From: Limonium bicolor
Taxonomy: Eukaryota; Streptophyta; Magnoliopsida; Caryophyllales; Plumbaginaceae
DNA length: 64,000 nt
Assembly: GCA_023374045.1 (NCBI GenBank)
Contig: CM041777.1
Span: forward strand, 82,454,300 to 82,518,299
Reading direction: 5' to 3'
Shown here: positions 19,891 through 62,477 of the stretch, in pieces
How the letters are laid out: every line of letters starts with the position of its first letter
Position numbering within the stretch: the first letter of the stretch is position 1
Notes under the pieces: model-generated
Told to the model about the DNA's origin: nothing
Databases searched by the model: none
The model's input: only the letters and a program-made list of their open reading frames with translations
Translations under genes and position numbers: made by a program

Positions 19891-19895
19891 CCTTC
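19891..19895 (+). repeat. Left target-site duplication CCTTC
   Basis: CCTTC directly precedes the TG of the 5' LTR. The same five bases follow the last base of the 3' LTR at 42564-42568, so the outer boundaries of the chromovirus are exact. Confidence 0.95.
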
Positions 19896-22800
19896 TGAAA
19901 TACCCCGTAATTAAAAACAGTGATTAATTAGGCTAATTATATTTTTAAAGGCTTAATTACACTTAAATAAATACGAGGGAACAAATCCCGAAGAAAACGG
20001 ACCTTTAAAATGGGTTAAAAGCATAAACGAACCTTAAAGCGCGTTTTTCGAGGAAACCGGGAAAACGTGACTTTAAGCGGGTCAAATAGACTCGTAACAG
20101 TTTTGGTCAACTAAATAATCATTAATAAATATTAGTGAAGCTTTAGAACCAATAAAATTAATTAAACGAGAAAATTCTGGAAAACGGGTACCGGATAGTA
20201 AGAACTGTAACAACCAGGAAGTTGTGGGGTAAGAGTACAAATAAACAAAGCTAGTGTGTCCACTTTGCAAATAAAAATAAAATGTGAGTGTGTGTGGGTG
20301 TGTGGGATCGGCAGCCTCCCTCTCTCACTCCCCTTAATTCCTCTCTTATACACATAAAGACAAAACAATAAAAGAAGAGAAAAGAAAACAAGTACAAAAG
20401 TAAAAATAGAAACTCTCTCTCCTCTAGCAACCCTCACTCACGATTTTTCCCCCCTCCTTCTCTATTTTCTTCTCCTTCCTTGCGATGGCCATGGAGTTTT
20501 GAAGAAACCCCCACAAACCTCTCATTCTCTCCTCTCTTTGAGTACTCAAACCTTCTCCAAATCCAATAAAAATTATACCATTGCAACCCCCTTGCAGAAG
20601 AAAACACATTCCACCTTTCAAAAATCGAAAACAACCGTTTTCATCTCCATGGGTATTCTCCATTTGAAGCTTGAGTACCACCATTAGAAGCACCTTCACC
20701 TCCTTGTCATTTTGAGGTAAAAATATTCTTGAAAACCTATCTTTTTCTAGCCCTTATATACAAAACGAAAATTCAAAGTGAGTCTTGTTTTACTCCTTGC
20801 ATTCCAGCCGATTTTGGCTGCTCATTTGGGCTAGGAATCTTGTTCATTTGCTAGACAAGGACTCCACACATTGGTTGGAAGGTAATACTCTTTTCTAAAC
20901 CCTAAAACATCTAGATTCTAGGGTTAGTATAAAGTGAATGCTAAATGGTTTGTGTGGATTGGTATGGTGGTTGTAGTATTGTGCATTGTGTGAGGAAGAA
21001 CAAAGAAGAAGGAAAGAAGGAAGGAGAAGACAAGAAAGAAAGGAAAAACTAGAAACACAAGGTAATTACCTTTACCTTGAGCTTGTTTTGTATAGTAGTA
21101 GTGTAACAGTTTTTGAGTAGTAAAATGAGTAATGTATTTGAGTAATGAGTAGTGGTAATGTAGTAGTGTATTGGAGAAGAGAATGTAACAGTTTTGAAGA
21201 TTTTAAATGAGTTTTAAAAGCTTGGGAAAACCTTGGGTAGTATGTGTATATGTGCAGGAATTTGATGTTTATAGTAGTGTTGAGATGTGTATATAAAGTG
21301 TTGTATAAAACAGGTTGTGAAAATGAGCCATTGTGAGCTGAAATAGTGTGTGAGCAAAGTAAGAATTATAGGGGAGACTATGTCAAATTTTGTGTAGGAA
21401 TGAGAGGACTTAAGTTGTTTAAGAAGAGGAAGTATTTGGAGAGTTGAAAGGAGTGTTTAGTATCTTGTAACAGATTTGGATATGAGTTTGTAAACGGGAT
21501 GGAAATAGGTTGTGAGTTGATGTATTTAAGATGCTAAAAGTGGCATTGGATGAGGGAGTATTGGAGGATAAGTGTTGAGGGAAAAATCTGTAGCATAATG
21601 GAGGAAACAAAATCTGTAGCATTAGTGTGAGGAAACTAGTATAAGAGTCGAAATGAAATGAGAAAAATGTGTAAGTGAATGTAAGGATTGAGTAGTAAGC
21701 TTGGTGGATGAACCAAGGTGATTTAGAGGGTGTAATTAGTGCTAAATCATGTGGGGAAGTATTGGTAAAGATTGGGGAAGCAATGGGTAAAGAGAACACC
21801 CAAAAACAAATTTTAAAACTGAAGTACTGGGCCGGACCGACCTTAGGACCGAACTTGCAAGGTCGGTCGAGCCCATATTTACAAAGACGGGAAACCTTCT
21901 GGAATCGACCGACCTTGCGACCGGGCTTGCAAGTTCGGTCGGACCAGAAAATTCTCCCGTCAGAAACCTACTGGAATGGACCGAACTTGCGACCGGACTT
22001 GCAAGTTCGGTCAGCCAGAAAAATTCCCGTAATGCAAGCTACTGGAATGGACCGACCTTGCGACCGGACTTGCAAGGTCGGTCGGGCTAAAATTTTCAAG
22101 GACGAAACTTACTGGAATGGACCGACCTTGGGACCGGACTTGCAAGGTCGGTCGGCCCTGAAATTTTCACACGATGTAGCCTACTGACTTGGACCGAACT
22201 TGCGACCGGACTTGCAAGTTCGGTCGAGTCAAAAAAAAATGTTTTATTATATGATTATAGTTATCATATGTATATATATATGCCTATACAAATATAAGCA
22301 TATGTATGTAGTAATACACCATTAATGAAGTAATAATGGTGAGAAAGTAAGTGAATGAGTAAGGAAACAAGTTTAAGAAGTAGTAAAGAAAAGAATGGTT
22401 TTGTAACCAAGTAAGAAGGTAATAAAGTAGTAAGTATATATTGAAAGTATCAATGAAGGAGTAAGTATATCAATAATAGATCATTGATCATACTACTTCA
22501 TGTATGTATAGGAATCAAATAGTTGATCCTCGAAGGAACCCGGTAGTAGTATACGACGGTGAACGGTATGATTTCTTCATGCCCTGTATCCTAACTTGGT
22601 TACCCCGATTTGTGTGCTTATGTGATCACCAATAAGATAAATGCATGAATCGGACTTTTATTACGCTTAATTGTGTTTGGACTATATTGTTCTTGTTGTA
22701 TCTTCTTGAACAAATAGTTTGTATAATTCATGAAATGTATGAATGAGGATGAAGTATATGTGTAAGTATGAGTACTTGGGTATTGTATTGATGTACGGAA

Positions 22801-23922
22801 AGAAAGTATGGACTTCTACTAATTCCTAACAATCTAACTCCTAACATGAGTAATGAGTATAATGGAATGAGTAGAAGCCCGATATAGTTTCGGCCACGCG
22901 TGAGGATAAGGAGACACAAGAGGTTGGATCCGAATCCTGGCTATAATCTTTTCCTTGGACCAATCCCCTTGAATGGGTAGCATCCTGGATTAGTGGGCCA
23001 CCCTAAAGCCCTGTGGTGGGATGTAGTAATCCCTGCCCGGAGGTCATACCGACTTAACTGGAAGTAAAGTATGTAAGGAATAAGCATTGTATGTGTATTG
23101 GTCTTGACTATTGTAAGTCATTGACCCGGAGTAAAAGAGTATTGAACACCCGATTAACCCGGGTGTGTAAAGAGGCTAACAAGACCTTGAATGTATTGGA
23201 GAATTGTATCTCCGTAATGCGGTGAGTATGGGTAAGTATAATCGGTTGACTTGAATTGTCGTCCTTATATGTATTGTATGTACGTATGCCTTGTGTATGG
23301 AATGTATTGTATTGTATTGTATAAAGCATGTATGTATGTATGAATGAAACGAACCGCATGTACTCGACCAATTAGTTGGCGTACCCTCGCTAGCACGCGG
23401 GTATGCGGTTATCATATGCAGCGTAAGCTGACCCCCTAGGGGGAATGTTTTTACTCCACAGGTACCCGCGAGGCGTGATGGTAGGGTAAGGACGGGATGT
23501 GATCCTTTTTTATGTAGTTAGTAGCATTGGAATAGTGTACCGAGTTGTACACGGCTAGGCCATTTTGAGTAGCCGGTGTACCATGTGGTACACCTTTTTG
23601 GATATTGAATTCTTATTTGGATAGTAAGGAGAGGATGTATAAACTCTTCATTTTCGGGAAGTAGTCTTGGAATGTAATTTATATATTCAGTATACTCGGT
23701 AATCAAATGTAATTAAGTATTTGGTATTGTAAAGTAAGTAGTATGTATTTGGTTTATTCTAATCATCAGACCGACACGGTAAGTAGTAGTAGCCTTGTTA
23801 ACCTTGGATGGTTAACGGCGTTGTATCACCCGCCGGGAGTAAGTAAGTATTCCACTGCGAGTAAGTAAGTAAGTATGAGAATGATTAGAGGATAATGGAA
23901 GGATTAGCGGTTGGGATGTTCA
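19896..23922 (+). repeat. 5' LTR of the chromovirus (4,027 bp)
   Basis: It starts TGAAATACCCCGT and ends GGGATGTTCA, five bases before the primer binding site. It matches 38544-42563 nearly base for base with scattered substitutions and small indels. A TATATAAAG at about 21291-21299 is a possible TATA box, but the start site cannot be fixed from sequence. It includes a hairpin-repeat array at 21834-22228. Confidence 0.96.
21834..22228 (+). repeat. Array of six ~70-bp units each with a hairpin (ACCGACCTTGC ... GCAAGGTCGGT)
   Basis: Each unit has an 11-bp left arm, a GACCGGACT-type loop and the complementary right arm. Units 1, 4 and 5 use ACCGACCTTGC/GCAAGGTCGGT (unit 1 has a slightly changed left arm). 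Units 3 and 6 use ACCGAACTTGC/GCAAGTTCGGT, so both arms changed together. Unit 2 is mixed. A ~160-codon open frame across the array (21708-22187) is broken in the other LTR and is probably not a gene. Confidence 0.88.
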
Positions 23923-23927
23923 AAAAG

Positions 23928-23939
23928 TGGTATCAGAGC
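23928..23939 (+). other. Primer binding site, tRNA-Met type (TGGTATCAGAGC)
   Basis: TGGTATCAGAGC is the standard plant initiator tRNA-Met primer site. It lies five bases after the LTR. Its 3' half is part of a perfect 8-bp inverted repeat, CAGAGCGA-AGTC-TCGCTCTG (23934-23953). Confidence 0.93.
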
Positions 23940-24054: not shown

Positions 24055-24147
24055 ATACCCTTGACGTCTGCAAGGACGATACCATTGTTGAATCAAGACC
24101 ATAAGGTCATAGTTTCACCGTATCTAATGTAATCCACACTTGTTCAG

Positions 24148-25607
24148 ATGTCAGGACGAGGTCCAGGTCGTCCCAGAGGAGGGACTAGTGACGGACCAAG
24201 CGCGCAGACGATAGCTGAAATCGTCGCCGCCACGGTAGCACAGATGCTACCGGATGTAATCACTGCTGTACAGCAAACACAACAAACTCAACAACAGCAG
24301 CAGCAACCCGGCCCACCTCATCCCCGTGAGACTAATTGGGTAAAGGCAGTCGCCGACCTTCGACCTCCATGCTTTAGAGGCGAGAGCGACCCCGCCAAGC
24401 TCGAGGCTTATCTCTCTGAGATGGAGACGGCCTTCGAGACACTTGAGACTCCCACTGGAGTTCGAGTGAGGATAGCTGCGTACTACCTCAAAGACGTGGC
24501 TATGGACTGGTGGAAGCTCATTAAGGCCGAGCATGTAGCCGACCCTGCATTCGGATGGGAAGCATTTACCTCTCTCCTCCGATCTAAGTACTATCCCGAG
24601 CATGTCAAGACCAAGAAAAGGCTTGAGCTCGATGCCCTAAAAATGACAGAGAAGATGACGGTTGATGAATATTACCGCACCTTCACCTCTCTTCTCAGAC
24701 TTCTACCCGACCTTGGGTATACCGGCCAAGTCTTGGTCGACCGCTTCTACGGCGGATTGAGCCATCGACTCCGGTATGGCATGGGCTTCACACGGTTTAC
24801 CTCCCTTCAGGTAAACAAGTTGAACCCTTAAAAGCCATGAGTAATGTGAATTAGTATTCCCGTATGTAAGTGTAACCTAATGCCTAAGTAATTCAGGAGT
24901 GTTACCACGCGCATCTCGAGTTGAGATCACCTGCCAGCTGAGAGATGAGGAGCAAGCACTGAAGCGCAAGGTGAGCGGCAAGGGTAACACCTCCGACGAC
25001 CAAAACCAAGCCAGACCTTGGAAGAAGAAGAAGGGGAAGCATTCCCACCACAAGAACACTTCAGGAGACGGCGGAGCCCATACTGAGAAGGGCAAGGCAG
25101 CTGAACCGCTACAGATTGCCTACACCGCACCAGTGGCAGCGAAGCCACTGAGGTCTCAGCACTACAAGGGTAAGAACCCGAAACCGAATTAGAACACTTG
25201 TGAACACGTATGTATATAGAGTATTGTAAGTATACCGAACCTTGCTAACTTGGAAGCTATAGGTTCTGGATTTGGCCAAGGCAAGAACCAATCTGATGGC
25301 CGCAGCTACATATGCCGAAACTGCAACAAGGATCATCCCGACACAGATTGCCAAGGAAGGGAGATCCGCTGCTACACTTGCCAGAAGCCGGGGCACCGTG
25401 CTAATGCATGCCCAGAAAACTCTAAGCCCAAGGGCAACTATCAGGGCTACAAGCAGCGTGAGGGCAAGGAAGCTGCATCTGGCGATGCTCATGCCCAGCA
25501 TACCTCACAGGGACAGGGATCCCGAGGTCCGCAGAAGGGCGCACCGCAGAGGCAGCCGGCCTTACACATCATTGACCGTGATGGGACCGGGACTAAGTCC
25601 GGCCCAG
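24148..25607 (+). CDS. Gag polyprotein of the chromovirus, split into three exons (one frame break)
   Basis: Gag packages element RNA into particles. Exon 1 (24148-24810) starts at ATG just after CAG and encodes a Gly/Arg-rich start, a Gln run and the Retrotrans_gag domain (motifs MDWWKLIKAEH, SKYYPEHVKTKK, TVDEYYRTFTSLL). Intron 1 is 24811-24896 (GTAAAC..TTCAG). Exon 2 (24897-25169) encodes a basic linker and shows a one-base frame break near 24907. Intron 2 is 25170-25262 (GTAAGA..CTATAG, with CTAAC as branch site). Exon 3 (25263-25607) encodes two zinc knuckles: CRNCNKDHPDTDC (CX2CX3HX4C) and CYTCQKPGHRANAC (CX2CX4HX4C). Exon 3 ends in phase 1 at CCCAG|GTAACT. Introns inside gag are unusual for this group. 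Splice sites are predictions from sequence and phase. Confidence 0.85.
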
Positions 25608-25888
25608 GTAACTACCGTAACCTTTAATCCTTGAAGAGCATGACTAAGTATTAAAGTAATTGTATGAATGGGAGTATGAATGCGTAAGTACTTGAAGTAT
25701 GAAATTGAACATGAATAAGTAACATGGAAGTATGTATTGAGCATGAAATGAATTAGTAAGCCTAGAACTCACTCTAGATATAATTTACCACCTTAGGGAA
25801 ATTCCTTATCTGTTACCCAATACCTTCAAACTCACCTCATGAAGAGACCGACATCGCCACTCACCACTTCAACAACGAACAGTGTCAG

Positions 25889-26535
25889 GTCATCGCCCAG
25901 GTATGATCTTGTTAAAAGGATATCTGACACCCGAAGCACAAGTTTCAATCATCCGACGATGCAACGAGTTAGGAATGGGTCCAGGAGGATTTTATACACC
26001 CGAATTCCCCGGTGGAGCCACAATGAAGCTAAAGATAATGTGCTTGGGAAAGGATTGGAACCCTTATACCAAGGCATACCAAACAACGCGAGCAGGAGAC
26101 GGAGCAACACCTCCAGCAATACCCCCAGAATTCCAAATGCTTGTCACTCAAGCTGTAGAAATTGCTCAACAATGCGAAGATGAACCAATCCCTGCACTCG
26201 AAGCAGACCTATGTATCGTCAACTTCTATGAGAAAGAAGGACGACTTGGCTTGCACCAAGATAAGGATGAGACAGTGGAATCTCTTGAACTAGGAGTGCC
26301 GGTAGTGTCTTGGTCCATTGGTGACGATGCCGTATTTTTGTATAGCGAGCAGAAGCGTGTGGACCTCGCAGAGAAATTGGTATTGAGATCAGGAGATGTT
26401 CTAATCATGGGTGGAAAATCAAGGTTGCTGTATCACGGGATCCAGAAGATCAAGTTGAATACGGCACCACCGGCAATAATCAATGCCACACACATGAAAC
26501 CAGGACGCCTGGACCTTACCTTTAGAAAGTATTAA
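25889..26535 (+). CDS. AlkB-like (ALKBH1-type) 2-oxoglutarate/Fe(II) dioxygenase carried by the retrotransposon
   Basis: AlkB enzymes oxidatively remove alkyl or methyl groups from nucleic acid bases, using Fe(II), oxygen and 2-oxoglutarate. The frame is open from 25882 to the TAA at 26533-26535 (up to 217 residues). Metal ligands are visible as LGLHQDKDE (His and Asp, H-x-D) and LLYHGIQKI (distal His). GRLDLTFR provides the two arginines expected for 2-oxoglutarate binding, with Asp at the usual Asn position. CIVNFYEKEGRLGLH, VVSWSIGDDAVFLYS and SGDVLIMGGKSR complete the core fold, and KIMCLGKDWNPYTKAY is typical of plant ALKBH1 proteins. This suggests capture from a host gene rather than from a plant virus. 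Two acceptor sites (exon start 25889 or 25901) both keep phase with Gag exon 3. The stop is followed by AATAAA 70 bp on. Confidence 0.93.
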
Positions 26536-26604
26536 TCTTGTAGTAACATGTAATCCAGTAGTAACGTGTATTAGAGACACAGTATGTATGATGGTTGGTT
26601 ATTC

Positions 26605-26610
26605 AATAAA
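26605..26610 (+). terminator. AATAAA polyadenylation signal after the AlkB stop
   Basis: ATTCAATAAAAGC lies 70 bp after the AlkB stop codon and before the protease exon acceptor (26677). It would allow a short Gag-AlkB transcript to end here. Plant poly(A) signals are loose, so this is suggestive only. Confidence 0.5.
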
Positions 26611-26677
26611 AGCAGTGTTGGTCATTAAATTCCACTTGCGTTCCACCATCTTTACTTATAATCTCATGAATCAATAG

Positions 26678-27462
26678 GTTGTGGACTCGGTACCGAAGGT
26701 AACTTGAGCATCCTCACCGAAGAACAAGCCGGCAAAAGCGGCACCATTCTAACGGGAATATTCCCAGTAAATGGCATCGAAGCCTCAGTATTATTCGACT
26801 CCGGCGCCTCTCACACCTTTGTATCGCCATCATTCGCTACAAGGTTGGGGCTAGACGCAGATGAGCTACCGAATTTCTTGGTGACTCTCCCGTCAAAGGA
26901 GCGGGTAAAGTATACTAAGTATTACCACACCGCCACCATTCAAGTCAAAGGTGAAGCGTTTCCCATTTCCTTCATTGAATTCAACGGATTGGGATTCGAC
27001 CTAATAATTAGAATGAACTGGTTAGAGCGGCACAAGGGACGGATTCTATGCGCCGAGCACCGATTGCTGCTAAAGAGTCCATCTGGGGTCACTGTTTCAT
27101 ACCACCAGAGGCCAAGAGAGCCTTCAACCACAGTCATCTCCGCTATGACAATGTATCGGGAGCTCAGAAAGGGACATGAAGTGTATTTATGCCATGTGAA
27201 AGACCTGGAGAGAGATCCAGAATTCAGTGATGATGTAACAGTAGTCTCAGAATTTCCTGATGTATTCCCGAAAGAGCTACCTGGTATGCCACCACAAAGA
27301 GCAGTAGAGTTTGAAATCGACCTTGTACCTGGTACTGGTCCCATTGCTAGGGCACCATACCGCATGGCACCTGCAGAAATGAAAGAGCTGAAAGAGCAAC
27401 TACGTGATCTTCTCGACAAAGGGTTCATACGCTCGAGCGTATCACCCTGGGGAGCATCAGTC
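26678..27462 (+). pseudogene. Protease and start of reverse transcriptase (Pol, 5' part), cut by a nested element
   Basis: The exon begins after CAATAG in phase 1, matching Gag exon 3. It encodes an aspartic protease with LFDSGASHTFVS (about 26790-26825) and a linker, then the start of the gypsy RT (FPDVFPKELPGMPP, then LLDKGFIRSSVSPWGA). At 27462 the frame runs straight into the LTR of the nested element, and the RT resumes at 35462. The open frame up to that point is intact. Confidence 0.93.
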
Positions 27463-28044
27463 TGAAGAGGGCAAAAATATGACGAGACTGAAGAGCCAAG
27501 ACGGTCCAAACCTTAGATCCCGGCTCAGGCCCCAGGCCCCCTTCAGGACCCTGTTCAGGCTCCAATCTGGACACCAAGCGTCAATCCAGATCCCGCAACA
27601 GTACTAAGTCCGGGCACTAGACCTCATGACTAGGTCCAGGATCCCGCACCCGGCACTCTACGTCCGGGCGCCACATCCCGCGTCTCGTATTCTGCATCCG
27701 GGCATCGCACCCCGTACCCCACACTTTTAGACCGGAAGGCTTTACAAGGAGGAAAGTGTCGAAGTTAGGAAGGCAGCTCCTATAAAGCAATGCTACATGT
27801 TCAAGGGTTTAGAGATAGACTTCACCCTAGAAAGTCTATAAATAGAGATGGGGGGCTCATTTGTTAGGGGACACAAGATTAGAAGAGAGAGAAAACACTA
27901 GAAAGCTCTCTAACGTTGTAATACCAAAGAAAGGAATAAAGATATTGTCAAGAAGTGGATGTAGGCCGGATTATTGGCCGAACCACTATAACTCTCGTTG
28001 TTCTGTTCATTGGTGAGATTTGAGGGACAAATTATACGTTTTCA
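27463..28044 (+). repeat. 5' LTR of the nested element (582 bp)
   Basis: It runs from TGAAGAGGGC to CGTTTTCA. It contains a TATA box (27837-27844) and an AATAAA (27935-27940), giving a complete U3-R-U5 layout. Confidence 0.94.
27837..27844 (+). promoter_or_regulatory. TATA box of the nested LTR promoter
   Basis: TCTATAAATAGAG is a textbook plant TATA box. Transcription would start some 30 bp downstream, near GGGGGCTCATTTG. The same box is at 35251-35258 in the 3' LTR and could fire into the remaining chromovirus pol. Confidence 0.8.
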
Positions 28045-28046
28045 TT

Positions 28047-28064
28047 TGGCGCCGTCTGTGGGAA
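28047..28064 (+). other. Primer binding site of the nested element (TGGCGCCGTCTGTGGGAA)
   Basis: It lies two bases after the 5' LTR. The TGGCGCC class of primer site is common in plant gypsy elements. I do not assign the tRNA with certainty. Confidence 0.8.
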
Positions 28065-29380
28065 TCGAACTGCAAGAAAGCAACCACGATTAAGCCACGT
28101 TTATTCACGATTCTGTTTGTTGCTTCGGAGTAGAGAAAGCCACGATGAATTCGACGTGGGAAACGAATGGTCGGAAACGACAACCACGAAACCACCGTAA
28201 TCCAAAAGAAACACCACGCAAGGGGAATCAGATCAAAAAAAATTAAGAGATACATCTACGAAAGATCGACCTCAAAGATTGAATCGTTGTTGGTTCATCC
28301 ACGGAATTCAGAAAATCAACTTGCGTCTTTGAAGGAAATAGCGAACAAGGATCTTGAAGTACGGGTCGGACTACCGAAGTTCATAATTCTATCATGAGCA
28401 AGATGAGTTTGCTCTTAAAGGAAGATGAACGATTCGCCGGTTGATTGAAAAATTTGTAGAAGGATACTATCACCATCGATTGGCTTCCAGAGCCGATTGA
28501 TCCAAGAAGTCGATCGATCCATCAGCCTTCAAGAATTTCACTGGCACTCAGGAAATTCGTCAAAGCGAGCATCGAATTCTCAAACGTCGGAGCTTATTCA
28601 GATCTAAAATAAGGTTCATCCGTTGGTGATTCACGATGCGAGTAAATATTCGAGAAGTGATAAACGAAATGAGTCCATGTACGGAGAACCAATTCTCGAT
28701 TAAGAAAGAAACGGTTAAAGGCGATCTCAGATCTAGGTCTACAACTCATCAAGAAGGAGTGCGAATTGTCCTTCGTTCAGGAGACGGCGACCTCTCAGAC
28801 TTCAAATCGAGATTTAACTGACAAATCTCAGTTGACGATAGCGTTTCCTTCTAAATCTGAATCTACGAAAGGGAAACTCATTCTCCCCCTTATATGATCG
28901 ATCAGATTTGTTAAGCTCATGTGTTGTTCTCCATTTCACCAAATTTGTTTCAATCGCAGGGGGCAATGACGATCAACAGAACAGAAACCCTTGCCTCTAA
29001 GAAAGGCTTTACAGTTTGACAACCATGGAACAAAGGCAATTTGATAAGTAGGGAGGCTTTCGTCCGGAGGTCCCCTGTCCAGTCTTTGAAGAGCTGAACC
29101 AGTATCGAAGTTTTGATAACAAGCAAGGAGCGAGAGAAAAGCCACATATTGCAAAACTCCCTCACAACACACTCAACCGGATGTTGTCCTCAGTCCAATG
29201 CCAAGCGACGTCTTCCCTCCAAACAAAGATGGAGATTCATTTTCAGACATTAATGATCGATAGAGCTTGGAGTCAAGTCAAGTCGAGCGCTGATTAAATC
29301 AAAGAAAGAAAGAGTAAGAATTCCTAAGTTCAACGCAACCTTGGAAGGTATACGCATCTCCTCTTTTCTTCTCAAAAACA
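28065..29380 (+). other. Leader and internal region of the nested element, no gene seen
   Basis: Only short frames without family motifs are present. A gag-like motif was looked for and not found. Confidence 0.5.
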
Positions 29381-29384
29381 AGGC

Positions 29385-29960
29385 TGACCGGAAGCTCCTT
29401 GACCGGAAGCCGGAAGCTCCTTGGCCGAAAGCCGGAAGTTCCTTAACCGGAAGCTGGATGACAACGACCGGAAGCTCCTTGACCGGAAGCCGGAAGCTCC
29501 TTGGCCGGAAGCCGGAAGCTCCTTGACCCGGGTGCAGGCCGCAATTCCAACTCCCGGGAGATGTTTCCAAGTAACCAGGCAACCGGGAGGTTTTCTTCAT
29601 GACCGGACTGCATCGCTGAGCATCTCTCAGACCGGAGCAGAATCACCACGACCGGGCAACAACCAGTCGATCACCTTCAAGCTCAACGACCGACCGGACG
29701 TAACCTCGATGATTCTCAACTACCGGGCGCAACTTCCGGTCAAGCTTTTTCTCTCAAAGAATGACCGGGCATAGGGTACCGGTGCAACTTCAGGCCAGGC
29801 ACAGCATTGGCCGGGCGCAACCCCAGGCCAGACCCGGCGGTGACCAGGCGACGTTTCCTTTGAAATGACCGGGCAATGTTAACCGGACGATGATTTTTAT
29901 CAAAAGTAACCGCGCGGCATTTCCTTTGGGGCGACCAGGCGATGTTCATTCAAGTCTAAA
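29385..29960 (+). repeat. GACCGG-based short tandem repeats
   Basis: At 29388-29525 a ~22-bp unit, CCGGAAGCTCCTTGACCGGAAG, repeats about six times. From 29590 to 29945 a looser ACCGGGCAA/GACCAGGC motif recurs every 15-30 bp. Arg/Lys-rich frames here arise from the repeat. Confidence 0.75.
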
Positions 29961-32900
29961 GATGGCATCTGAGCTTCAAGCCCATGCGTGACTATTTCTA
30001 AACTCCACTCGCCATGAAAGACATCAATCAAGCTTGGTCCACCAAGAGCAAGTCAAAGTCTCTAAAAGTTTTCGACAGGTATGAATCCAAAATTGGGGCA
30101 AGCTCACAGCAGTCTCCATTTTTTCAAACTTCTTTTGCAGACTAGAGGTAAATTCTCCGACCCTTAACTATGTCGCAAAAGCTTGGAATTGGCTGAGATT
30201 TCTATGTCCATGATTTTGTCTCCTACTTACCAATGCGAATTACGAATTCATCTGCTTTCATCTCTACCAGCGTCTAAATATCACTATCAAAATATTGCGT
30301 TATAGCATTTGCCAAATAAATAACAGTTTCCTCTAATGCTGTGTACAAAGCACAAGGCATTATGTCCTGTTTTCATGGATTCAAAATCGTTAAACATGTT
30401 CTTATACCTCATATTTCCACTGCTTACTTCTATGGGTAAAATGAATTTCAGCCACCTACCTGTTGTCAGTAGGATATGTTTTTGTTTGGTTTTCAGTGAA
30501 ATTACACATCTATAAAGAAAAATCCTTCCTTCTTTATCTATAAAGTTAGTTAATGCATTAAATGCTGATTACTTCTTAATTCATAGCGGTAACATAGTTT
30601 ATTTAAAATTTAATTAGGCTTTACACAGAATAAAATGTATTCCCAACTGGGCATCATGCTATTTTGGCAGCTTCAAATAAAAACAAAACTGGGGAACAGT
30701 CCTCCTGTCTCAGCATTATTTTATGCTAAAAATTCTTTAGTTATGATTAATCGTGAACTCTGATTCTTCAAGTTTTACTCTTGTCTGGTCTTTACCTTGT
30801 CCAACCACTCAAAACAAAACCATTCTCCTACAGCTCTTATTTCTTACTTACCCTATTTATGGTCTGACTTTACTTCCAAAGCATTTGGTGTTACTGTGAT
30901 ATATCTGACTGAAAGCTGGGTTATGCAACATTATAAAACCACAAACTGTCTTGAGACATAACTTGCTATTTGTTTTGTGTCTTTGGATATTCTCTTGATT
31001 AATTAACTAGTTCTTCCCATCACCTGTTGTATACTTCTGCAAATCTAAAACTTGCATTCTGCTCACGCTTTGCTACGAAGATGCCACTACTGCTGCTATT
31101 GATCATCCATTTGTTATTATTTTAAACCTTTTCTTAAGTATATCCCAGATTAGCCTCCGATTGAATTAGTTTCAGAATTGAAAAACCATATCTCTCTCAA
31201 AATCTGCAATTTGAAAACCGCCTCAGTCACTAATTCCAAACCTTCATTCGTAGTTTTTTAAGAAAGATGGTATAGAGCCTTATCAATCTGAAACAAAAAC
31301 TCAATCTTTCCTCTTTGTGTCACTGCTGCTATAGTATCTTCTTCTAAAAACGATTTTCCCTTATTTATCACGGTTTTTTGGAACAGTCTCATGGTTCATC
31401 TTCGCTTTACTATTTTATACTTTCCATTCTGTCTATAACACTTCTAGTTTTGATATCACTTTGTTCTGAAGGCTTAATTTAGCCTCAGATTAAGTTTTAT
31501 TCACACGTATCTTGCCATGCCTCTAGAGAAAACGCTTTGGCACTCTTTCTGTTGCTATATAATGTGATCTTTTTATTCCAGTGTTAGCTTTGCTTATTGA
31601 TATGTCTGTTGCTACATTCTTTGCTCAATTTTCCGGTATTATCTGGTATTTTTGATAAGTTGAAACATGTTTCTATTATTAACGATTTTAGATCTGTCTT
31701 GACAGATCCTTGGCTGTGGTTAGTTCATTGGTGTTCGAGTTTATCTCTGTTTTTCTGTGCTTTCTTAAATGAATGTTCGGTGCCCTGACCGGTATTAAAA
31801 ATCTTTCTATTACTTACTATTGGTTATCAGATTTATCCTATCAATAGACTTGGGACATGAAGTTTGTTTCTTCAATAAAAACAATGCATTCTATGTTCAG
31901 AGTGACGTAGAAGGAACGAGCTCTCAAATGCACATATGTTTCTAATATCAATGATTTCTATTACTACCAACATCCTCTTGAACCTTGATTTGTCTCTGAA
32001 AAACTATAGCACTGTTTCCAGAGTAATGTCTTCCACTACAGCAGAGGTCGAATAAATTTAAATTTGTGTTTAACTTGAATTTCCTCTAATCCACGAATTG
32101 TTTAGAATATTTAGTTTGGGTGTCAAAAGCAGCTCAAATTTACAATCTGTTATAGTATCTTGTAGGTACTTTAAGGTTTGGATTTACGCTTAGTACATTA
32201 AAGTTCCCCTTCTCATGACATGGTATGCCTTAATTTGGTTTAGCAGTTTGATTTTCATAGCTTACGAATAAATACCGTCTATAAATTTTTTGCTCCTTTT
32301 TAGATTCCTCCAGCAAAGACTAAATGCTATCTTTGCTTCTGTTCTATAGCTGACCTGATATGAATCCCTGTGTTAATCTGCACTGCTTTAAAATTACGTA
32401 AGATTGAAATTTAGGAAACTGACAAATATTCTATTCAAATTGAAAATACAAGGTTGTTTTCTTTTCTCTAATTTTACGGTACTAAGTTGCTCATTGCCTG
32501 AAGCTTTTCCCTGAACATTAAAAGCATGAGCTGTGGCTATTTATGTCCACTTGTCTGGAAGGAAAATCAGCATACATTTTTCACCTGATAAATTCACTTA
32601 TCTTAAATTGCTGCTGTTTATTCAAAATTTTCTCTAAAAACTCTCTGAACACAATTGCATGTTTTTTATTATCTGAGGAGCTGCATAAACCATGGACCGG
32701 GACGAAGAGCCCCTTCAAAATATCTGATGCAAATTTTAAAAGGAATGGCACAGTGGTTAAGAGCAGGTTTTTTCCAAGGTACCACGTAATTGTGATTCAA
32801 CCTCGCACAGCACTACGGCGCGGCCCCACGCACGAGCTACTACCTAAGTCAGGAGAATGCAAGGAAAAAGAGTCTCTGTTTCAACCTTTTCATCTATCTG

Positions 32901-33900
32901 TCACAAATGAGGCAAACTGATCTCAGCCATCAGAGAAAGCTATTTTAGCAGGTTCCGATTGAACAATTACCTGCCCAGGTCTGTTTAAATGCTCGAGCCC
33001 TTACTATCTGCATCACTCATCATGCTTACTTCCTACCTGTATTCATTACAAATTCTCTGCTTCTGATTTTTTCTATCAAAAATAGAGCTTCAGTGTGATA
33101 CTGAGCTTAATTCAACTGTCTAAATTATTCTTCTAAAGCGAATGATAACATCTATTCTATTACTTTTGTATAAATCAAACCTGATGTTTGCTGCTGTTTC
33201 ACTTGACCCTTATCATGAAATGCTTAAAATCTGAGAAACCCACCTCATTTAAGATATGGTTTATGACAACAATTATAACCATGACTGTTCCTGTTCTAGC
33301 CTGGCCTTTTAAGCCTTGATCATGTGCTAATGATTAACCTGTGATACCATGAATAACAAATCCATGCTGCGTCTGAATTCTACTTCTTCATAAAGATTAT
33401 TTTCAGCAGTCCATGGTAACAACATTATGCTTTGCTCCTACTTTGTGCTGTTATGAATGGCCACTGTTTGCATTACTCATGGCATAGACTGATCCATAAA
33501 ATGATTTGCATATGCCTCTACACTATCTTCTGTCCAGTATGGACAAATAACTCAAGCATAATAAAGTCTGCGTGAGACAACAATTTACTTGCTGTTTTAA
33601 AGGAAACACTAGTGCCATCCTTCTATGTCATGAAGATTATAACTATTGCATGATAAGGTTGTAATAGGCGTACACAAGTTCTTATCATAATATGCTTAAC
33701 TTAGCTTTAAACAAAGTTCAGTACTCTCATTTATTTCCACTCGTCAAAAAAAAGAAAGTATATGGCTACTAGAATATGATTTCAAAGGTACTAATACATA
33801 TTTGAAGGAAGCGCAGGTACTTTTTACCAGGGGACTGATCACCCCCTGAAGTATTCAAAGAAAGCAAGAACAAAGGCCATCATGCCTTGAAAGTAATACC
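29961..33900 (+). other. Long AT-rich internal region of the nested element, no coding signature
   Basis: Nearly 4 kb without a family motif on either strand. A tRNA-like A-box/B-box pair may lie near 32744-32815 (see findings). Confidence 0.5.
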
Positions 33901-33902
33901 TA

Positions 33903-34335
33903 CCCATGGACTTTCTGCAATAGATTTGCATATCCATGGTGAAAAGTAACACCTACAGGCTATCACGCCTTGAAAGTATACCTACCCATGGACTTTCTGC
34001 AATAGATTTGCATATCCATGGTGAAAAGTAACACCTACAGGCCATCATGCCTTGAAAGTAACACCTACAGGCTATCATGCCTTGAAAGTAACACCTACAG
34101 GCTATCATGCCTTGAAAGTAACACCTACAGGCTATCATGCCTTGAAAGTAACACCTACAGGCTATCATGCCTTGAAAGTAACACCTACAGGCTATCATGC
34201 CTTGAAAGTAACACCTACAGGCTATCATGCCTTGAAAGTAACACCAGGCTATCATGCCTTGAAAAGTAACACCTACAGGCTATCATGCCTTGAAAGTAAC
34301 ACCTACAGACTATCATGCCTTGAAAAGTAACACTT
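33903..34335 (+). repeat. Minisatellite: duplicated ~83-bp unit, then ~10 copies of a 30-bp unit
   Basis: The 30-bp unit is GTAACACCTACAGGCTATCA plus TGCCTTGAAA. Seven copies are almost identical (34027-34237), followed by a shortened copy and two more. Before them an ATGGACTTTCTGCAATAGAT-containing block occurs twice. Period-30 repeats open frames on both strands that are not genes. Confidence 0.95.
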
Positions 34336-34679
34336 TGGGTTGAAATGAAACCCGGCCATCGAGCCAACCCAAAAACCCATCTCTGGACCCATCAGGAGCT
34401 CTGGTCGCCTGTAATGGGTGAATTGTTAGGTGTGGGACGCCATACCATACTTGAATCACAAGTACCATCCTTTGGCTAGCATAAGCAAAGTTGGGAAAAT
34501 ATATTATCTATGTTCTCCCTTTGAGGGAATTACCATCCTTTGGCTAGTATAAGCAAAATATTGTATATCAGAACAATAAGGGATTCATCCACCAAGGTAT
34601 TATGGGATCCATCCATCAAGATATATTATCTCAAAGATTTATGTCCCGGAATTTCCAATTTGTCAGATTCAGAAGAAAG

Positions 34680-34877
34680 ACACTTGTGGGACTTTTTTTA
34701 TCGTACTTATTGTACCAACCTTTTTGTAAGTTCATTTTTCTTTGTAAAAGCTAAAAAAAAAAGAACTTGTGGGACTAGGAGATGGGAGAAAGGAAAGGTA
34801 GAAAGCTTGTAATTTTTTATCTTGTTTTTTGTAAGTTCCACTTTTTAAATGCCAAAAAGTAGAACTTGTGGGACTGA
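34680..34877 (+). repeat. Three copies of a polypurine-like ACTTGTGGGAC motif before the 3' LTR
   Basis: ACTTGTGGGAC occurs at 34682-34692, 34765-34775 and 34864-34874. The last copy sits three bases before the 3' LTR, where the plus-strand primer belongs. The latter two follow a TTTGTAAGTTC block, so a ~90-bp segment appears repeated. Confidence 0.65.
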
Positions 34878-35456
34878 TGAAGAGGACAAAAATATACGAG
34901 ACTCAAGAGCCAAGACGGTCCAAACCTTAGATCCCGGCTCAGGCCCCAGGCCCCCTTCAGGACCCTGTTCAGGCTCCAATCTGGACACCAAGCGTCAATC
35001 CAGATCCCGCAACAGTACTAAGTCCGGGCACTAGACCTCATGACTAGGTCCAGGATCCCGCACCCGGCACTCTACGTCCGGGCGCCACATCCCGCGTCTC
35101 GTATTCTGCATCCGGGCATCGCACCCCGTACCCCACACTTTTAGACCGGAAGGCTTTACAAGGAGGAAAGTGTCGAAGTTAGGAAGGCAGCTCCTATAAA
35201 GCAATGCTACATGTTCAAGGGTTTAGAGATAGACTTCACACTAGAAAGTCTATAAATAGAGATGGGGGGCTCATTTGTTAGGGGACACAAGATTAGAAAG
35301 AGAGAAAACACTAGAAAGCTCTCTAACGTTGTAATACCAAAGAAAGGAATAAAGATATTGTCAAGAAGTGGATTAGGCCGGATTATTGGCCGAACCACTA
35401 TAACTCTCGTTGCTCTGTTCATTGGTGAGATTTGAGGGACAAATTATACGTTTTCA
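34878..35456 (+). repeat. 3' LTR of the nested element (579 bp)
   Basis: Matches 27463-28044 with roughly eight small differences. TATA box at 35251-35258 and AATAAA at 35348-35353. It ends CGTTTTCA, followed by CGGTC and the resumed RT frame. Confidence 0.95.
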
Positions 35457-35461
35457 CGGTC

Positions 35462-38054
35462 CTCTTCGTGAAGAAGAAGGACGGTAGTCTCCGCCTTTGC
35501 ATCGACTACCGCGAATTGAATGCGGTCACTGTAAAGAACAAATATCCATTGCCACGCATCGACGACCTGTTCGATCAGTTGAAGGGAGCATCTGTCTTTT
35601 CTAAGATTGATCTCCGATCCGGATATCATCAAATTGCTATCAAAGAGCAAGACGTTGAGAAAACAGCATTCCGAACAAGATATGGCCACTATGAATTCAC
35701 GGTAATGCCATTCGGTTTGTCTAATGCACCAGCCAAGTTCATGGACCTAATGAATCGGTTATTCAGTGATCAGCTGGACACTTCAGTAGTAGTATTCATC
35801 GACGACATCCTTGTGTATTCGAAGTCAGCAGAAGAGCATGAAAGCCACTTGAGAAGAGTACTTGAGACACTGCGTGAGAATCAGCTGTATGCGAAATTCT
35901 CCAAATGCGAGTTTTGGCTAGATCAGGTATCATTCCTTGGTCATGTCATCTCGAGCGCGGGTATTTCAGTAGATCCATCCAAAATCGAAGCAGTGCGATC
36001 ATGGCCTAGACCTAAGACTGTTACCGACATCCGGAGCTTTCTTGGTTTAGCCGGTTATTACCAGAGGTTTGTAAAGGACTTCTCAAAAGTCGCTAAGCCC
36101 ATGACGTCATTGATGAAGAAAGATGCACCGTTTGTATGGACAAGCGAGTGCGAGGTATCCTTCCAGAGACTAAAATACTCATTGACGTCGACGCCAATTC
36201 TCACACTTCCAGAGGGCACAGAGGGATTTGAGGTGTATTGTGATGCATCGGGCAAGGGCATGGGATGCGTACTCATGCAGCATGGCAAGGTAGTAGCATA
36301 CGCCTCCCGCCAGCTGAAAAAGCATGAGGAGAATTACCCGACACATGATCTAGAGTTAGGAGCCATTGTCTTCGCCTTGAAGATATGGCGACACTATCTC
36401 TATGGGGTAAGCATCACCATCTACTCCGACCACAAAAGTTTACAGTATGTATTCACACAGAAGGAACTAAATTTGAGACAGATGAGGTGGATGGAGTTTC
36501 TATCAGATTACGACATCAACCTCCAGTATAAAGAAGGGAAGGCAAACGTTGTAGCCGACGCCCTGAGTCGTCGAGCACATTCGCTCCATTCGCTACTCGC
36601 TTCTTCTAGCTTGGTTGACGAGGTGCGAGACGCTCAGTTGAGCGACCCTTACTTCACAGAGATCAGACAGAAAATCACAGATGGTACCTTCGAGAGCCGA
36701 AAGTACGACTTCAAATTGCATGAAGATGGTCTGATCCGATTGAATGGCAGATTATGCGTCCCCCGAAGCAATGCTGAGCTAAGGGATCGCATTCTGTGAG
36801 AGTCATATTGTTCGACACTGCATGTCCATCCGGGAGCCTCTAAAATGTACAAAGACATGAGGAGATACTTCTAGTGGTCAGGAATGAAATCAGACGTGAC
36901 TGAGTATGTTCTGAGGTGTCTCACTTGCCATAAAGTGAAGTTCGAGCACTGAAGACCGGGAGGAATGGTGCAATCCATGCCCATTCCGGAATGGAAATTC
37001 CACGATATCTCTATGGATTTTGTTGTTGGACTCCCACCTGCTAGGGAGGACTCAACATGATCTGGGTAGTAGTCGATCGTCTCACCAAGGTTGCCCGATT
37101 CATACCGATGAAGGACACCTGGAAGGTGGCGAAGCTCGCAGAGCTATTCGACAAGGAGATCATCCGACACCACGGAGTCCCAAAAACCATTGTATCTGAC
37201 CGCGACACCAGATTTCTATCGAGATACTGGAGAGCAACACGGGAAGCGCTTGGTACTGAGTTGAAGCTTAGCACCGCCTTCCATCCACAGACCAACGGTC
37301 AAACAGAAAGGACCATCCAAACACTAGAGGATATGCTTAGGGCATGTGCCTTAGACTTTCAGGGGAGCTGGATTGAGAAGCTTCATCTTATCGAGTTTTC
37401 GTATAACAATAGCTATCATGCTTCGATTAAGATGTCGCCGTTTCAAGCCTTGTATGGTAGACCTTGCCGTACCCCGTTGTGTTAGGATGAGTCAAGCGAA
37501 GCGGTCATCATAGGACCGGAGTATTTGGAACAAGTACAAGCTGAGGTACAACAAATCCGAGCAAATATGAAAGCAGCCCAAGATAGACAGAAATCCTATG
37601 TGGATGTGCGACGACGCGACCTTGAGTTCGTCGTGGGTGACCAAGTGTTCTTGCGTGTCTCACCTATGAAGGGCGTCTTTCGATTTTGCCAGAAGGGCAA
37701 GCTGAGCCCGAAATTTGTAGGCCCGTATACCATTACCGAGAGGATTGGAGCCGTAGCTTATAGGCTAGCATTTCCTGAAGAATTGGGACGTGTTCATGAT
37801 GTCTTTCATGTATCACAACTCAAGAAATACATAGCCGATCCCTCTCATGTATTAGAACCCGAACACTTATCCCTAGAGCCGACAATGAGATATGTCAGAC
37901 TCCATTGCGAATCCTTGATACAAAGACAAGAGACACTCGCCATAAATCTGTACGAATGGTGAAGGTCTTGTGGTCTAACCACGATGTCGGGGAAGCGACT
38001 TGGGAATTAGAGGACGCCATGAAGGTGAAGTACCCGAATATATTTGTAGACTAG
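35462..38054 (+). pseudogene. Pol continued: RT, RNase H, integrase and chromodomain
   Basis: The RT resumes with [20 protein letters not shown], has DLRSGYHQI and the active-site FIDDILVYS (35795 on), then [11 protein letters not shown]. RNase H follows ([28 protein letters not shown]). The integrase has its His/Cys zinc finger (LHVHPG..CLTCHKVK, about 36820-36935) and catalytic D, D, E in [17 protein letters not shown] and NGQTERTIQ. A chromodomain (VKVLWSNHDVGEATWELEDAM, about 37956-38020) ends at TAG 38052-38054. Stops at 36797, about 36873, 36951 and 37483 and frame shifts near 37050 and 37900 break the frame. Confidence 0.95.
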
Positions 38055-38543: not shown

Positions 38544-41500
38544 TGAAATACCCCGTAATTAAAAACAGTGATTAATTAGGCTAATTATATTTTTAAAGGC
38601 TTAATTACACTTAAATAAATACGAGGGAACAAATCCTGAAGAAAACGGACCTTTAAAATGGGTTAAAAGCATAAACGAACCTTAAAGCGCGTTTTTCGAG
38701 GAAACCGGGAAAACGTGACTTTAAGCGGGTCAAATAGACTAGTAACAGTTTTGGTCAACTAAATAATCATTAATAAATATTAGTGAAGCTTTAGAACCAA
38801 TAAAATTAATTAAACGAGAAAATTCCGGAAAACGGGTACCGGATAGTAAGAACTGTAACAACCGGGTAGTTGTGGGGTAAGAGTACAAATAAACAAAGTT
38901 AGTGTGTCCACTTTGCAAATAAAAATAAAATGTGAGTGTGTGTGGGTGTGTGGGATCGGCAGCCTCCCTCTCTCACTCCCTTAATTCCTCTCTTATACAC
39001 ATAAAGACAAACAATAAAAGAAGAGAAAAGAAAACAAGTACAAAAGTAAAAATAGAAACTCTCTCTCCTCTAGCAACCCTCACTCACGATTTTCCCCCCC
39101 CCTTCTCTATTTTCTTCTCCTTCCTTGCGATGGCCATGGAGTTTGAAGAAACCCCCACAAACCTCTCCTTCTCTCCTCTCTTTGAGTACTCAAACCTTCT
39201 CCAAATCCAATAAAAAGTATACCATTGCAACCCCCTTGCAGAAGAGAACACATTCCTCCTTTCAAAAATCGAAAACAACCGTTTTCATCTCCATGGGTAT
39301 TCTCCATTTGAAGCTTGAGTACCACCATTAGAAGCACCTTCACCTCCTTGTCATTTTGAGGTAAAAAATTCTTGAAAACCTATCTTTTTCTAGCCCTTAT
39401 ATACAAAACGAAAATTCAAAGTGAGTCTTGTTTTACTCCTTGCATTCCAGCCGATTTTGGCTACTCATTTGGGCTAGGAATCTTGTTCATTTGCTAGACA
39501 AGGACTCCACACATTGGTTGGAAGGTACTACTCTTTTCTAAACCCTAAAACATCTAGATTCTAGGGTTAGTATAAAGTGAATGCTAAATGGTTAGTGTGG
39601 ATTGGTATGGTGGTTGTAGTATTGTGCATTGTGTGAGGAAGAACAAAGAAGAAGGAAAGAAGGAAGGAGAAGGCAAGAAAGAAAAGAAAAACTAGAAACA
39701 CAAGGTAATTACCTTTACCTTGAGCTTGTTTTGTATGTAATAGTGCAATAGTTTTTGAGTAGTAAAATGAGTAATGTATTTGAGTAATGAGTAGTGGTAA
39801 TGTAGTAGTGTATTGGAGAAGAGAATGTAACAGTTTTGAAGTTTTTAAATGAGTTTTAAAAGCTTGGGAAAACCTTGGGTAGTATGTGTATATGTGCAGG
39901 AATTTGATGTTGTTATAGTAGTGTTGAGATGTGTATATAAAGTGTTGTATAAAACAGGTTGTGAAAATGAGCCATTGTGAGCTGAAATAGTGTGTGAGCA
40001 AAGTAAGAATTATAGGGGAGACTATGTCAAATTTTGTGTAGGAATGAGAGGACTTAAGTTGTTTAAGAAGAGGAAGTATTTGGAGAGTTGAAAAGGAGTG
40101 TTTAGTATCTTGTAACAGATTTGGATATGAGTTTGTAAACGGGATGGAACTAGGTTGTGAGTTGATGTATTTAAGATGCTAAAAGTGGCATTGGATGAGG
40201 GAGTATTGGAGGATAAGTGTTGAGGGAAAAATCTGTAGCATAATGGAGGAAACAAAATCTGTAGCATTAGTGTGAGGAAACTAGTATAAGAGTTGAAATG
40301 AAATGAGGAGGAAAAATGTGTAAGTGAATGTAAGGATTGAGTAGTAAGCTTGGTGGATGAACCAAGGTGATTTAGAGGGTGTAATTAGTGCTAAATCATG
40401 TGGGGAAGTATTGGTAAAGATTGGGGAAGCAATGGGTAAAGAGAACACCCAAAAACAGATTTTAAAACTGAAGTACTGGGCCGGACCGACCTTAGGACCG
40501 AACTTGCAAGGTCGGTCGAGCCCAGATTTACAAAGACGGGAAACCTTCTGGAATCGACCGACCTTGCGACCGGACTTGCAAGTTCGGTCGGACCATAAAA
40601 TTCTCCCGTCAGAAACCTTCTGGAATGGACCGAACTTGCGACGGACTTGCAAGTTTGGTCGGCCAGAAAAATTCCCGTAATGCAAGCTACTGGAATGGAC
40701 CGACCTTGCGACTGGACTTGCAAGGTCGGTCGGGCTAAAATTTTCAAGGACGAAACTTACTGGAATGGACCGACCTTGGGACCAGACTTGCAAGGTCGGT
40801 CGGCCCTGAAATTTTCACACGATGTAGCCTACTGACTTGGACCGAACTTGCGACCGGACTTGCAAGTTCGGTCGAGTCAAAAAAAAAATTATTATATGAT
40901 TATAGTTATCATATGTATATATATATGCCTATACAAATATAAGCATATGTATGTAGTAATACACCATTAATGAAGTAATAATGGTAAGAAAGTAAGTGAA
41001 TGAGTAAGGAAACAAGTTTAAGAAGTAGTAAAGAAAAGAATGGTTTTATAACCGAGTAAGAAGGTAATAAAGTAGTAAGTATATATTGAAAGTATCAATG
41101 AAGGAGTAAGTAGATCAATAATAGATCATTGATCATACTACTTCATGTATGTATAGGAATCAAATAGTTGATCCTCGAAGGAACCCGGTAGTACTTATAC
41201 GACGGTGAACGGTATGATTTCTTCATGCCCTGTATCCTAACTTGGTTACCCCGATTTGTGTGCTTATGTGATCACCAATAAGATAAATGCATGAATCGGA
41301 CTTTTATTGCACTTAAATGTGTTTGGACTATATTGTTCTTGTTGTATCTTCTTGAACAAATAGTTTGTATAATTCATGAAATGTATGAATGAGGATGAAG
41401 TATATGTGTAAGTATGAGTACTTGTGTATTGTATTGAGGTATGGAAAGAAAGTATGGACTTCTACTAATTCCTAACGATCTAACTCCTAACATGAGTAAT

Positions 41501-42563: not shown

Positions 42564-42568
42564 CCTTC

Positions 42569-56240: not shown

Positions 56241-56581
56241 GACCCCATTCTTTTGCACCGGAATCAACTGGTTATGATTTATCAGTTGGTTTATCAGCTC
56301 AGCTCATTCTTTTGTTGTATTATGGGTCAGATACCATTTATTTATGAAACTTATTCAAAACAGCATAATCAGTTAGTTAATCAGTTGATTTACGCATTAT
56401 CAGTCGCATTATCAGTTGGTTTACATATTGTCAGTCACATTATCAGTAGGTTTATCAGTTCAAAACTCTAATACAAAAAAACAATTTATATAGGTTTTTA
56501 CACAATCATCTAATTTTGAAATCAGTCATCAGTCCATATCAACTATCAGCTGGTTTATTCTTTTTGCAAAAGAATGGGGCC
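56241..56581. mobile_element. Tourist-like (PIF/Harbinger) MITE, 341 bp
   Basis: The ends GACCCCATTCTTTTGCA and TGCAAAAGAATGGGGCC are inverted repeats, and TAA flanks both sides (56238-56240, 56582-56584). The interior repeats TTATCAGTTGGTT many times. It ends 11 bp before the start codon of the glycosyltransferase pseudogene. Confidence 0.82.
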
Positions 56582-56592
56582 TAACCGTAGCC

Positions 56593-57474: not shown

Positions 57475-57523
57475 CACCCCCTCAAACGAGGAAGGTAAAC
57501 CATCCGAAAGTTTGAAAGAAACT

Positions 57524-62270: not shown

Positions 62271-62477
62271 CATAATTGCGGTAACTCACAGCAGGTAAAA
62301 AACAGGAGCGAGGCGAAAAGAAAAAGGAATTGAAATTTTGTGGCCGAAACAAGAAGATTGAAGAATGAAAGGAAGGAAATGCGATCGAAGCGAAGAAGAG
62401 AAGGGAAAACGCAAAGGGCAAAGAATCATCATGAAAACGAGGAAGAAGGAAAACAGGAGCAAGGTCCCATGACCGCT

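Follow-up and report, generated by a model that had tools for sequence, protein, structure and literature searches.

An AlkB gene of the plant ALKBH1 type was found within a Ty3/gypsy long terminal repeat (LTR) retrotransposon of Limonium bicolor, between gag and the protease gene. The element lies in a 64,000-nt stretch of contig CM041777.1 (assembly GCA_023374045.1, positions 82,454,300 to 82,518,299), which is the whole stretch of DNA analysed, is referred to as the window, and supplies the numbering used throughout. AlkB belongs to the element and is a many-copied gene under selection. From the arrangement of the surrounding sequence we infer, with support from several comparisons of copies, that the element RNA is spliced and that AlkB forms a predicted alternative exon. 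The probability of the whole model, in which a spliced retrotransposon has long held an ALKBH1-type AlkB, produces Gag-AlkB and Gag-Pol alternatively and packages a demethylase, we put at roughly 0.6.

The ends of both LTRs were exact, with CCTTC duplicated on either side (Table 1). Upstream of AlkB were a Gag domain (PF03732, E = 6.7e-16) and a CCHC knuckle, and downstream were a protease (PF08284, E = 1e-24) and reverse transcriptase (RT)-RNase H. The LTRs, the 5-bp target-site duplication and the order gag, protease, RT, RNase H, integrase were those of a Ty3/gypsy element, with the integrase core being a weak match (rve, 22.3 bits versus a cut-off of 32.6). Based on the exact ends and this gene order, AlkB sits inside the element, as claimed in a first-pass annotation of the sequence. 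That annotation also called the element a chromovirus. The gene order agreed with this, but the chromodomain match fell below the Pfam cut-off (Chromo, E = 0.002, 18.4 bits versus 25.1); a PDB sequence match had E = 0.037, and a single-sequence structure model was too poor for use (predicted local distance difference test score 53). We consider the element to be a high-copy plant Ty3/gypsy LTR retrotransposon and probably a chromovirus.

The two LTRs had 65 differences in 4009 aligned sites and 19 gap events (Kimura two-parameter distance 1.64%), which at general rates of 1.3e-8 and 7e-9 corresponds to an insertion age of ~0.6–1.2 million years. The window copy has decayed: its pol is broken by a nested element and has further stops and frame changes, and there is one frame break in gag exon 2 and another in the AlkB exon just before the ATG.

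The AlkB domain, its copies and selection

The AlkB frame runs from stop to stop at 25843-26535, with an ATG at 25903. Its product matched PF13532 (2OG-FeII_Oxy_2) over residues 1-208 of 210 and profile positions 2-194 of 194 (E = 2.3e-41; 142.6 bits, cut-off 31.2). The metal ligands of the H-x-D..H motif (H118, D120, H178) and the two 2-oxoglutarate (2OG) arginines (R202, R208) described in the first-pass annotation were present, and in 46 rows, consisting of the window and 45 protease-ranked copies (see below), these residues were kept in 46, 42, 45, 45 and 45, respectively. The annotation's AlkB frame stands, and its description of AlkB as intact holds for the domain. The predicted exon, a feature that the annotation lacked along with the introns, starts at 25797, and because the frame break precedes the ATG the whole exon of the window copy is not intact.

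The nearest relative by both sequence and fold was OsALKBH1, bearing out the resemblance to ALKBH1 reported earlier, and human ALKBH5 (7v4g) was ranked 48 by Foldseek with 15% identity to the element AlkB. The modelled fold is, with high confidence, of the plant ALKBH1 type. Rice ALKBH1 (PDB 5xeg/5xoi) and plant ALKBH1C/D-like genes have the predicted fold, the active site and ~50-57% identity in common with it; unlike them, the element-like AlkBs have a shortened loop past residue 90, and they group in a clade of their own. This clade had support of 100/93 in a 117-row tree, built from the first 110 of 160 thinned relatives and, as in all trees, without the fragment P0118. It lay outside the sampled fern and angiosperm ALKBH1s, with its split from other plants supported only at 91/78. 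The idea of a captured host gene fits these data, as an ALKBH1-type gene that the element may have acquired long ago, although the clade does not fall within the sampled fern and angiosperm genes.

Among database relatives, Gag P0229 was 64% identical and AlkB P0001 72% identical to the element proteins, and we infer from the equal size that both are on one 26,621-base contig. Viral contigs contained no relatives of a single AlkB query or of gag, and an AlkB alignment query identified only three distant loci (29-43%). Among the at least 80 loci listed from prokaryote contigs, all with bacterial titles, identity to the element AlkB was at most 47%; the closest of these (L004-L036, up to 47%) were largely from Acidobacteria, which hints at where relatives of plant ALKBH1 may lie. 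Annotated Gag-AlkB fusions were sought at 330-1050 aa, and no Gag domain was identified by Pfam among 120 listed of 218 matches. Three Smallanthus sonchifolius proteins (P0121-P0123, 583-804 aa) were only 43-48% identical yet greatly outscored single-domain AlkBs, which suggests that they carry tandem AlkB domains.

An AlkB search of the 2.92-Gb host assembly identified at least 150 matches that were 94-100% identical and mostly full-length without stops. The 50,209 and 66,783 hits of the AlkB and protease searches were first-look candidates rather than copies, and the 150 and 144 that were scored are lower bounds. Among 50 copies picked by AlkB, including the window, the gag exons were present in 48-49, and the AlkB exon with the segment following it, and the protease, in all 50. 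Selection by AlkB was avoided in a second set, in which 144 protease matches were scored and the 641 bases upstream were examined for ranks 2-47, that is, for the copies nearest to the window protease. AlkB DNA was present in 45 of these 46 copies, at 92.5-96.5% identity to the window, and 44 of them retained 90% or more of the domain; the one copy lacking AlkB DNA was dropped. The domain was open in 16 of the 45, frameshifted in 15 and interrupted by stops in 14. The recurrence of the gene order in 45 of 46 copies rules out an assembly join.

Variants in at least four copies should mostly predate insertion, and singletons should mostly represent decay after insertion. In the protease-ranked set, the shared AlkB variants comprised 22 nonsynonymous (N) and 37 synonymous (S) changes and the singletons 130 and 68 (Fisher p = 1e-4), with 12 stops among the singletons versus two. 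Relative to a neutral N/S of 2.94, derived on a 70-copy set and reused here, these ratios were 0.20 and 0.65, respectively. The identical columns read in the wrong frames gave 43/16 and 51/8. In the 70-copy set, which was chosen by AlkB score and included L114-L133 and L134-L153 picked by hand from a list of 150, the AlkB counts were 14/40 (shared) and 76/72 (singletons); as these are biased by that choice, the conclusion rests on the protease-ranked set. The same shared-versus-singleton pattern was seen in the 70 copies for gag exon 1, gag exon 3 and the protease, whose shared variants were at 0.15, 0.21 and 0.11 of the neutral expectation and whose singletons were at 1.16, 0.96 and 0.94. Site-wise comparison of element-like AlkBs that are 61-78% identical showed, in 11 of 11 pairs tested (z 3.4-7.9), that they differ at sites that also vary in another 220 relatives from plants and bacteria. 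In simulated neutral drift to ~72% identity the frame stayed unbroken in roughly 2% of cases, with the caveat that database matches favour open frames.

AlkB is not a single neutral copy, and the refuting outcomes of a lone copy and of neutral dN/dS named in the first-pass annotation do not apply: the copy search and the N/S counts of the protease-ranked set led us to reject a single-copy artefact, and a recent passenger with it. The latter explanation, a transduced host cDNA or exon without benefit to the element, retains a very small probability. Transduced fragments of host genes are indeed carried by LTR elements (PMC13317346), and the domain is broken in 29 of 45 copies. However, the excess of synonymous changes among shared variants, the site-wise constraint among relatives and the support for the element-like clade are all at odds with a passenger.

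Split gag and the predicted AlkB exon

Three interruptions of low GC content (32-38%, versus 54-58% in the gag exons) with GT/AG borders divide gag. Using plant splice matrices of approximate frequencies, the three gag donors ranked 2, 4 and 5 of 122 GT sites, and the acceptors 24896, 25796, 26677 and 25262 ranked 3, 13, 16 and 19 of 215. The best local donor-acceptor pair restored the frame at all three junctions testable in the window.

The predicted splices were read in 67 of the 70 copies, three having been dropped because a marker position was in a gap. Exon 1 joined to exon 2 was open in 24 copies, versus 1 and 3 when the acceptor was shifted by one or two bases. The reading from gag exon 1 (part) to the AlkB stop was open in 12 copies and that from gag to the protease in seven, and none was open unspliced. 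The joining of exons 1 and 2 to exon 3 (15 open; nine and one after shifts of one and two) was a weak control, as exon 3 contains a second long frame. In gag exon 2, only the predicted frame showed constraint (shared variants 17/28 versus 38/5 and 37/7). The splice dinucleotides varied at 1.44%, versus 3.91% for a background of other intron columns that includes the post-AlkB segment, and 230 of 5000 random column sets were as low.

The predicted exon 2/exon 3 junction was identified at 17 genomic places, five with one mismatch and 12 with two, versus none for a reversed control. We fetched ten of these (L194-L203), namely all five with one mismatch and five of those with two. Intron 2 was missing in all ten; intron 1 was exactly missing in five, present in four and unreadable in one; AlkB was kept in all ten, albeit mostly deleted in one. 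These copies look like reverse transcripts of partly spliced RNA, the other reading being that they represent an older intron-less form. The distant Gag P0229 stops at the position of intron 1 (LQ, then VLS, then the frame end), suggesting an old origin for intron 1 and its later loss from the copies without it. On this genomic trace only, namely copies from which introns 1 and 2 are cleanly gone, the element appears to be a spliced LTR retrotransposon.

It is hardly credible that the interruptions are decay or insertions instead of introns, with AlkB lying in a broken region. In favour of this reading, the window copy has frame breaks in both the AlkB exon and gag exon 2, and an older intron-less form could in principle account for the intron-free copies, but the 17 junctions against a reversed control of none, the exact ends of introns 1 and 2 and their absence in differing combinations, the frame controls of the predicted splices and of gag exon 2, and the lower GC content of the interruptions all argue for introns.

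The exon 3 donor (25608) has two in-frame acceptors, 25796 leading to AlkB and 26677 leading to the protease. Of the 67 copies, 21 read through the first of these joints without interruption and 13 through the second; moving the acceptor by one or by two bases cut these numbers to 1 and 3 for the first and to 0 and 0 for the second. An N-terminal extension of P0118 and P0002 was homologous to the window from acceptor 25796/25797 on, with 0 of 2000 shuffles reaching either score, and before the acceptor there was no clear similarity to these two proteins (best case 28 of 500 shuffles). An AATAAA is located 70 bases past the AlkB stop and was kept in 47 of 49 other copies. Our first idea, that AlkB was a retrotransposed cDNA with untranslated regions lying beside gag, was dropped for the intron model after the junction tests.

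We also observed that the segment past the AlkB stop (26536-26675) was the least variable non-coding part in the 70 copies, with a minor-allele frequency of 1.49% versus 4.3-5.4% in introns 1-3. It varies as little as if it carried signals, to which the selection of copies by AlkB score may contribute.

Alternatively, AlkB might be translated as a free protein from its own start codon, at 25903 or further upstream, either through internal initiation or from a short RNA of its own. Its targets would then be nucleic acids of the host or the element in the nucleus or the cytoplasm, the role proposed for open reading frame (ORF) 2 of the orchid element discussed below. The domain does start at a methionine common to P0001, P0002 and P0003, constraint on the exon's N-terminal part is weak, and the orchid AlkB is a separate ORF. 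We regard this as unlikely, however, based on the P0118/P0002 extension starting at the splice acceptor and on the number of copies open from exon 3 to AlkB compared with those open when the acceptor is shifted.

Feature coordinates and neighbouring sequences

The positions of the features of the element are given in Table 1, in which the primer-binding site is presumably of the initiator tRNA-Met type. The 5' LTR has six tandem copies of a 70-72-bp repeat at 21800-22234, with matches at equal offsets in the 3' LTR. The LTR copies of the nested element were 98.8% alike; no long pol frame was seen in it, its target duplication was apparently imperfect, and it contains 30-bp tandem repeats at 33995-34363. 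An Rfam scan gave no matches at the gathering score.

Outside the element, remains of a CACTA-type transposase (Transposase_21 and DUF4216) were present at 264-2592, with direct repeats next at 2846-3463. At 56494-62729, a glycosyltransferase-like ORF adjoins a Copia-like element, both recognized by eye; the latter has 205-bp direct repeats 5282 bases apart, and the ORF (56660-57361) had no Pfam match.

Table 1. Features of the AlkB-containing element in the window.
Feature	Position	Strand	Basis or remark
Target-site duplication CCTTC, left copy	19891..19895	n/a	
5' LTR, 4027 bp	19896..23922	+	
Primer-binding site TGGTATCAGAGC	23927..23938	+	Read in sequence
gag exon 1 (capsid region, PF03732/PF19259)	24145..24810	+	
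gag intron 1, 86 nt, GT-AG	24811..24896	+	Cleanly missing in 5/10 fetched intron-2-less copies
gag exon 2, frameshift in window copy	24897..25169	+	
gag intron 2, 93 nt, GT-AG, CTAAC branch-like site	25170..25262	+	Exon 2/3 junction in genome
gag exon 3 (CCHC zinc knuckle PF00098)	25263..25607	+	
Predicted intron 3a, 189 nt, exon 3 donor to AlkB acceptor	25608..25796	+	
Predicted intron 3b, 1070 nt, AlkB skipped and gag exon 3 joined in frame to protease	25608..26677	+	
Predicted AlkB exon with own stop codon	25797..26535	+	N-terminal part homologous to P0118, P0002 from acceptor on
AlkB (ALKBH1-type 2OG-Fe(II) dioxygenase) domain, 210 aa	25903..26532	+	Pfam, relatives, fold
AATAAA, sole + strand one in internal region outside LTRs and nested element	26605..26610	+	
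Protease and RT start	26678..27462	+	
Nested LTR element, within RT gene	27463..35456	+	
RT and RNase H	35457..36799	+	
Weak integrase core (rve) and SH3-like domain at C-terminus, stop in between	37045..37962	+	
Chromodomain-like C-terminus	37857..38054	+	Under Pfam cut-off
3' LTR, 4020 bp	38544..42563	+	
Target-site duplication CCTTC, right copy	42564..42568	n/a	

Proposed role of AlkB and comparison with known systems

In the model we favour, AlkB would be retained as one of the genes that the element needs for replication, and the primary RNA would lose the two short gag introns by splicing. From the exon 3 donor, one route would lead into the AlkB exon and yield Gag-AlkB ending at the AlkB stop, from an RNA perhaps polyadenylated at the AATAAA, and the other would pass AlkB and enter the protease to yield Gag-Pol. 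The Gag part would carry AlkB into the particle next to the element RNA and single-stranded cDNA, where AlkB may oxidatively strip N-methyl groups that otherwise mark or block the template, whether N6-methyladenine (6mA), damage of the 1-methyladenine/3-methylcytosine (m1A/m3C) type or N6-methyladenosine (m6A). The packaging, substrate and benefit of AlkB are conjectures in this scheme. AlkB could erase m6A or 6mA from element RNA or cDNA, as the first-pass annotation supposed. The fuller proposal is tentative, at odds slightly short of even: that alternative splicing yields Gag-Pol and a Gag-demethylase, that the packaged eraser acts on the RNA or single-stranded cDNA of the element before integration, that the capture is convergent with that of the orchid elements, and that hosts generally control plant retrotransposons through adenine methylation.

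An equally simple alternative, compatible with the erasure of marks, is that AlkB repairs RNA or cDNA templates damaged by alkylation. Its HQDKDE active-site stretch is the same as that of E. coli AlkB, and a repair role has been postulated for plant-virus AlkBs (PMC9289625). As the nearest solved relative, rice ALKBH1, was reported to be an in vitro 6mA demethylase on single-stranded DNA (PMC10469495), we believe that repair in place of erasure is possible, with the balance of odds against it.

Several observations weigh against the spliced Gag-AlkB model. The AlkB domain is open in just 16 of the 45 protease-ranked copies, and intron 3 was retained in all ten fetched intron-2-less copies. 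The acceptor at 25796 ranks no higher than 13 of 215, that at 26677 no higher than 16 and that at 25262 no higher than 19, and no CTRAY-type branch motif is present in the last 60 nt upstream of 25796 or 26677. The top donor-like site, 25901 (CAG/GTATGA), is inside the AlkB exon at its PGM codons and is not a donor of the model. The N-terminal stretch of the AlkB exon was without clear constraint (shared 5 N/2 S, 70-copy set), and an AATAAA also occurred in 546 of 5000 shuffled versions of the segment that holds it. Finally, the substrate does not follow from an ALKBH1 fold.

In searches of the PMC library, a body that most subscription papers and bioRxiv lie outside, we found no ALKBH1-type AlkB in an LTR element and no AlkB exon within a split gag. 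Gypsy elements with an ALKBH5-like m6A demethylase have been described in Phalaenopsis (PMC9289625), where a survey of 121 angiosperm genomes reportedly identified the 2-ODD domain in no species other than two of Phalaenopsis. That lineage, Gypsy_Pa_2799 with its paALKBH5-like ORF2, is likewise a plant Ty3/gypsy with long LTRs and an AlkB-superfamily domain in many copies. However, it is a Tat/Ogre relative of 25.5 kb with dual RNase H and 6.4-kb LTRs, and it has a single gag-pol ORF1 and a separate ORF2 whose ALKBH5-type product is an m6A demethylase in vitro (PMC9289625). The Limonium element differs in its chromodomain-like C-terminus, 4.0-kb LTRs, split gag and AlkB of the ALKBH1 type between gag and protease; its AlkB is not of the ALKBH5 type and does not occupy an ORF2 of its own next to one gag-pol ORF.

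The exon arrangement is unusual in its own right. Plant LTR elements are reported to be generally without introns, with Ogre and EVADE being notable exceptions (PMC12786077). Ogre (Ty3/gypsy) and EVADE (Ty1/copia) likewise use intron-containing RNA to make different proteins (PMC12786077, PMC6317226, PMC8892269), and EVADE provides a precedent in a plant element for splicing coupled to early polyadenylation (PMC8892269). In the accounts consulted, each of these has one intron and no added enzyme exon, whereas in the Limonium element two of the gag interruptions are cleanly missing from some copies and AlkB is enclosed by a third.

Other mobile genomes have also acquired enzymes of nucleic-acid methylation. 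Retrotransposons of dinoflagellates and charophytes reportedly carry captured cytosine methyltransferases, rather than a demethylase (PMC5890265), and plant RNA viruses carry AlkB domains, although their replication cycle differs (PMC9289625). Marking with m6A reportedly keeps plant retrotransposon RNA in stress granules, and a host demethylase frees the RNA from them (PMC12786077). The intron-less genomic copies look like natural records of reverse-transcribed spliced element RNA, and the proposed exon arrangement offers a concrete, testable route for delivering AlkB as a Gag fusion. Two plant Gypsy lineages would have captured demethylases of different AlkB subfamilies, which would be convergent evidence that methyl marks restrain retrotransposon RNA or cDNA.
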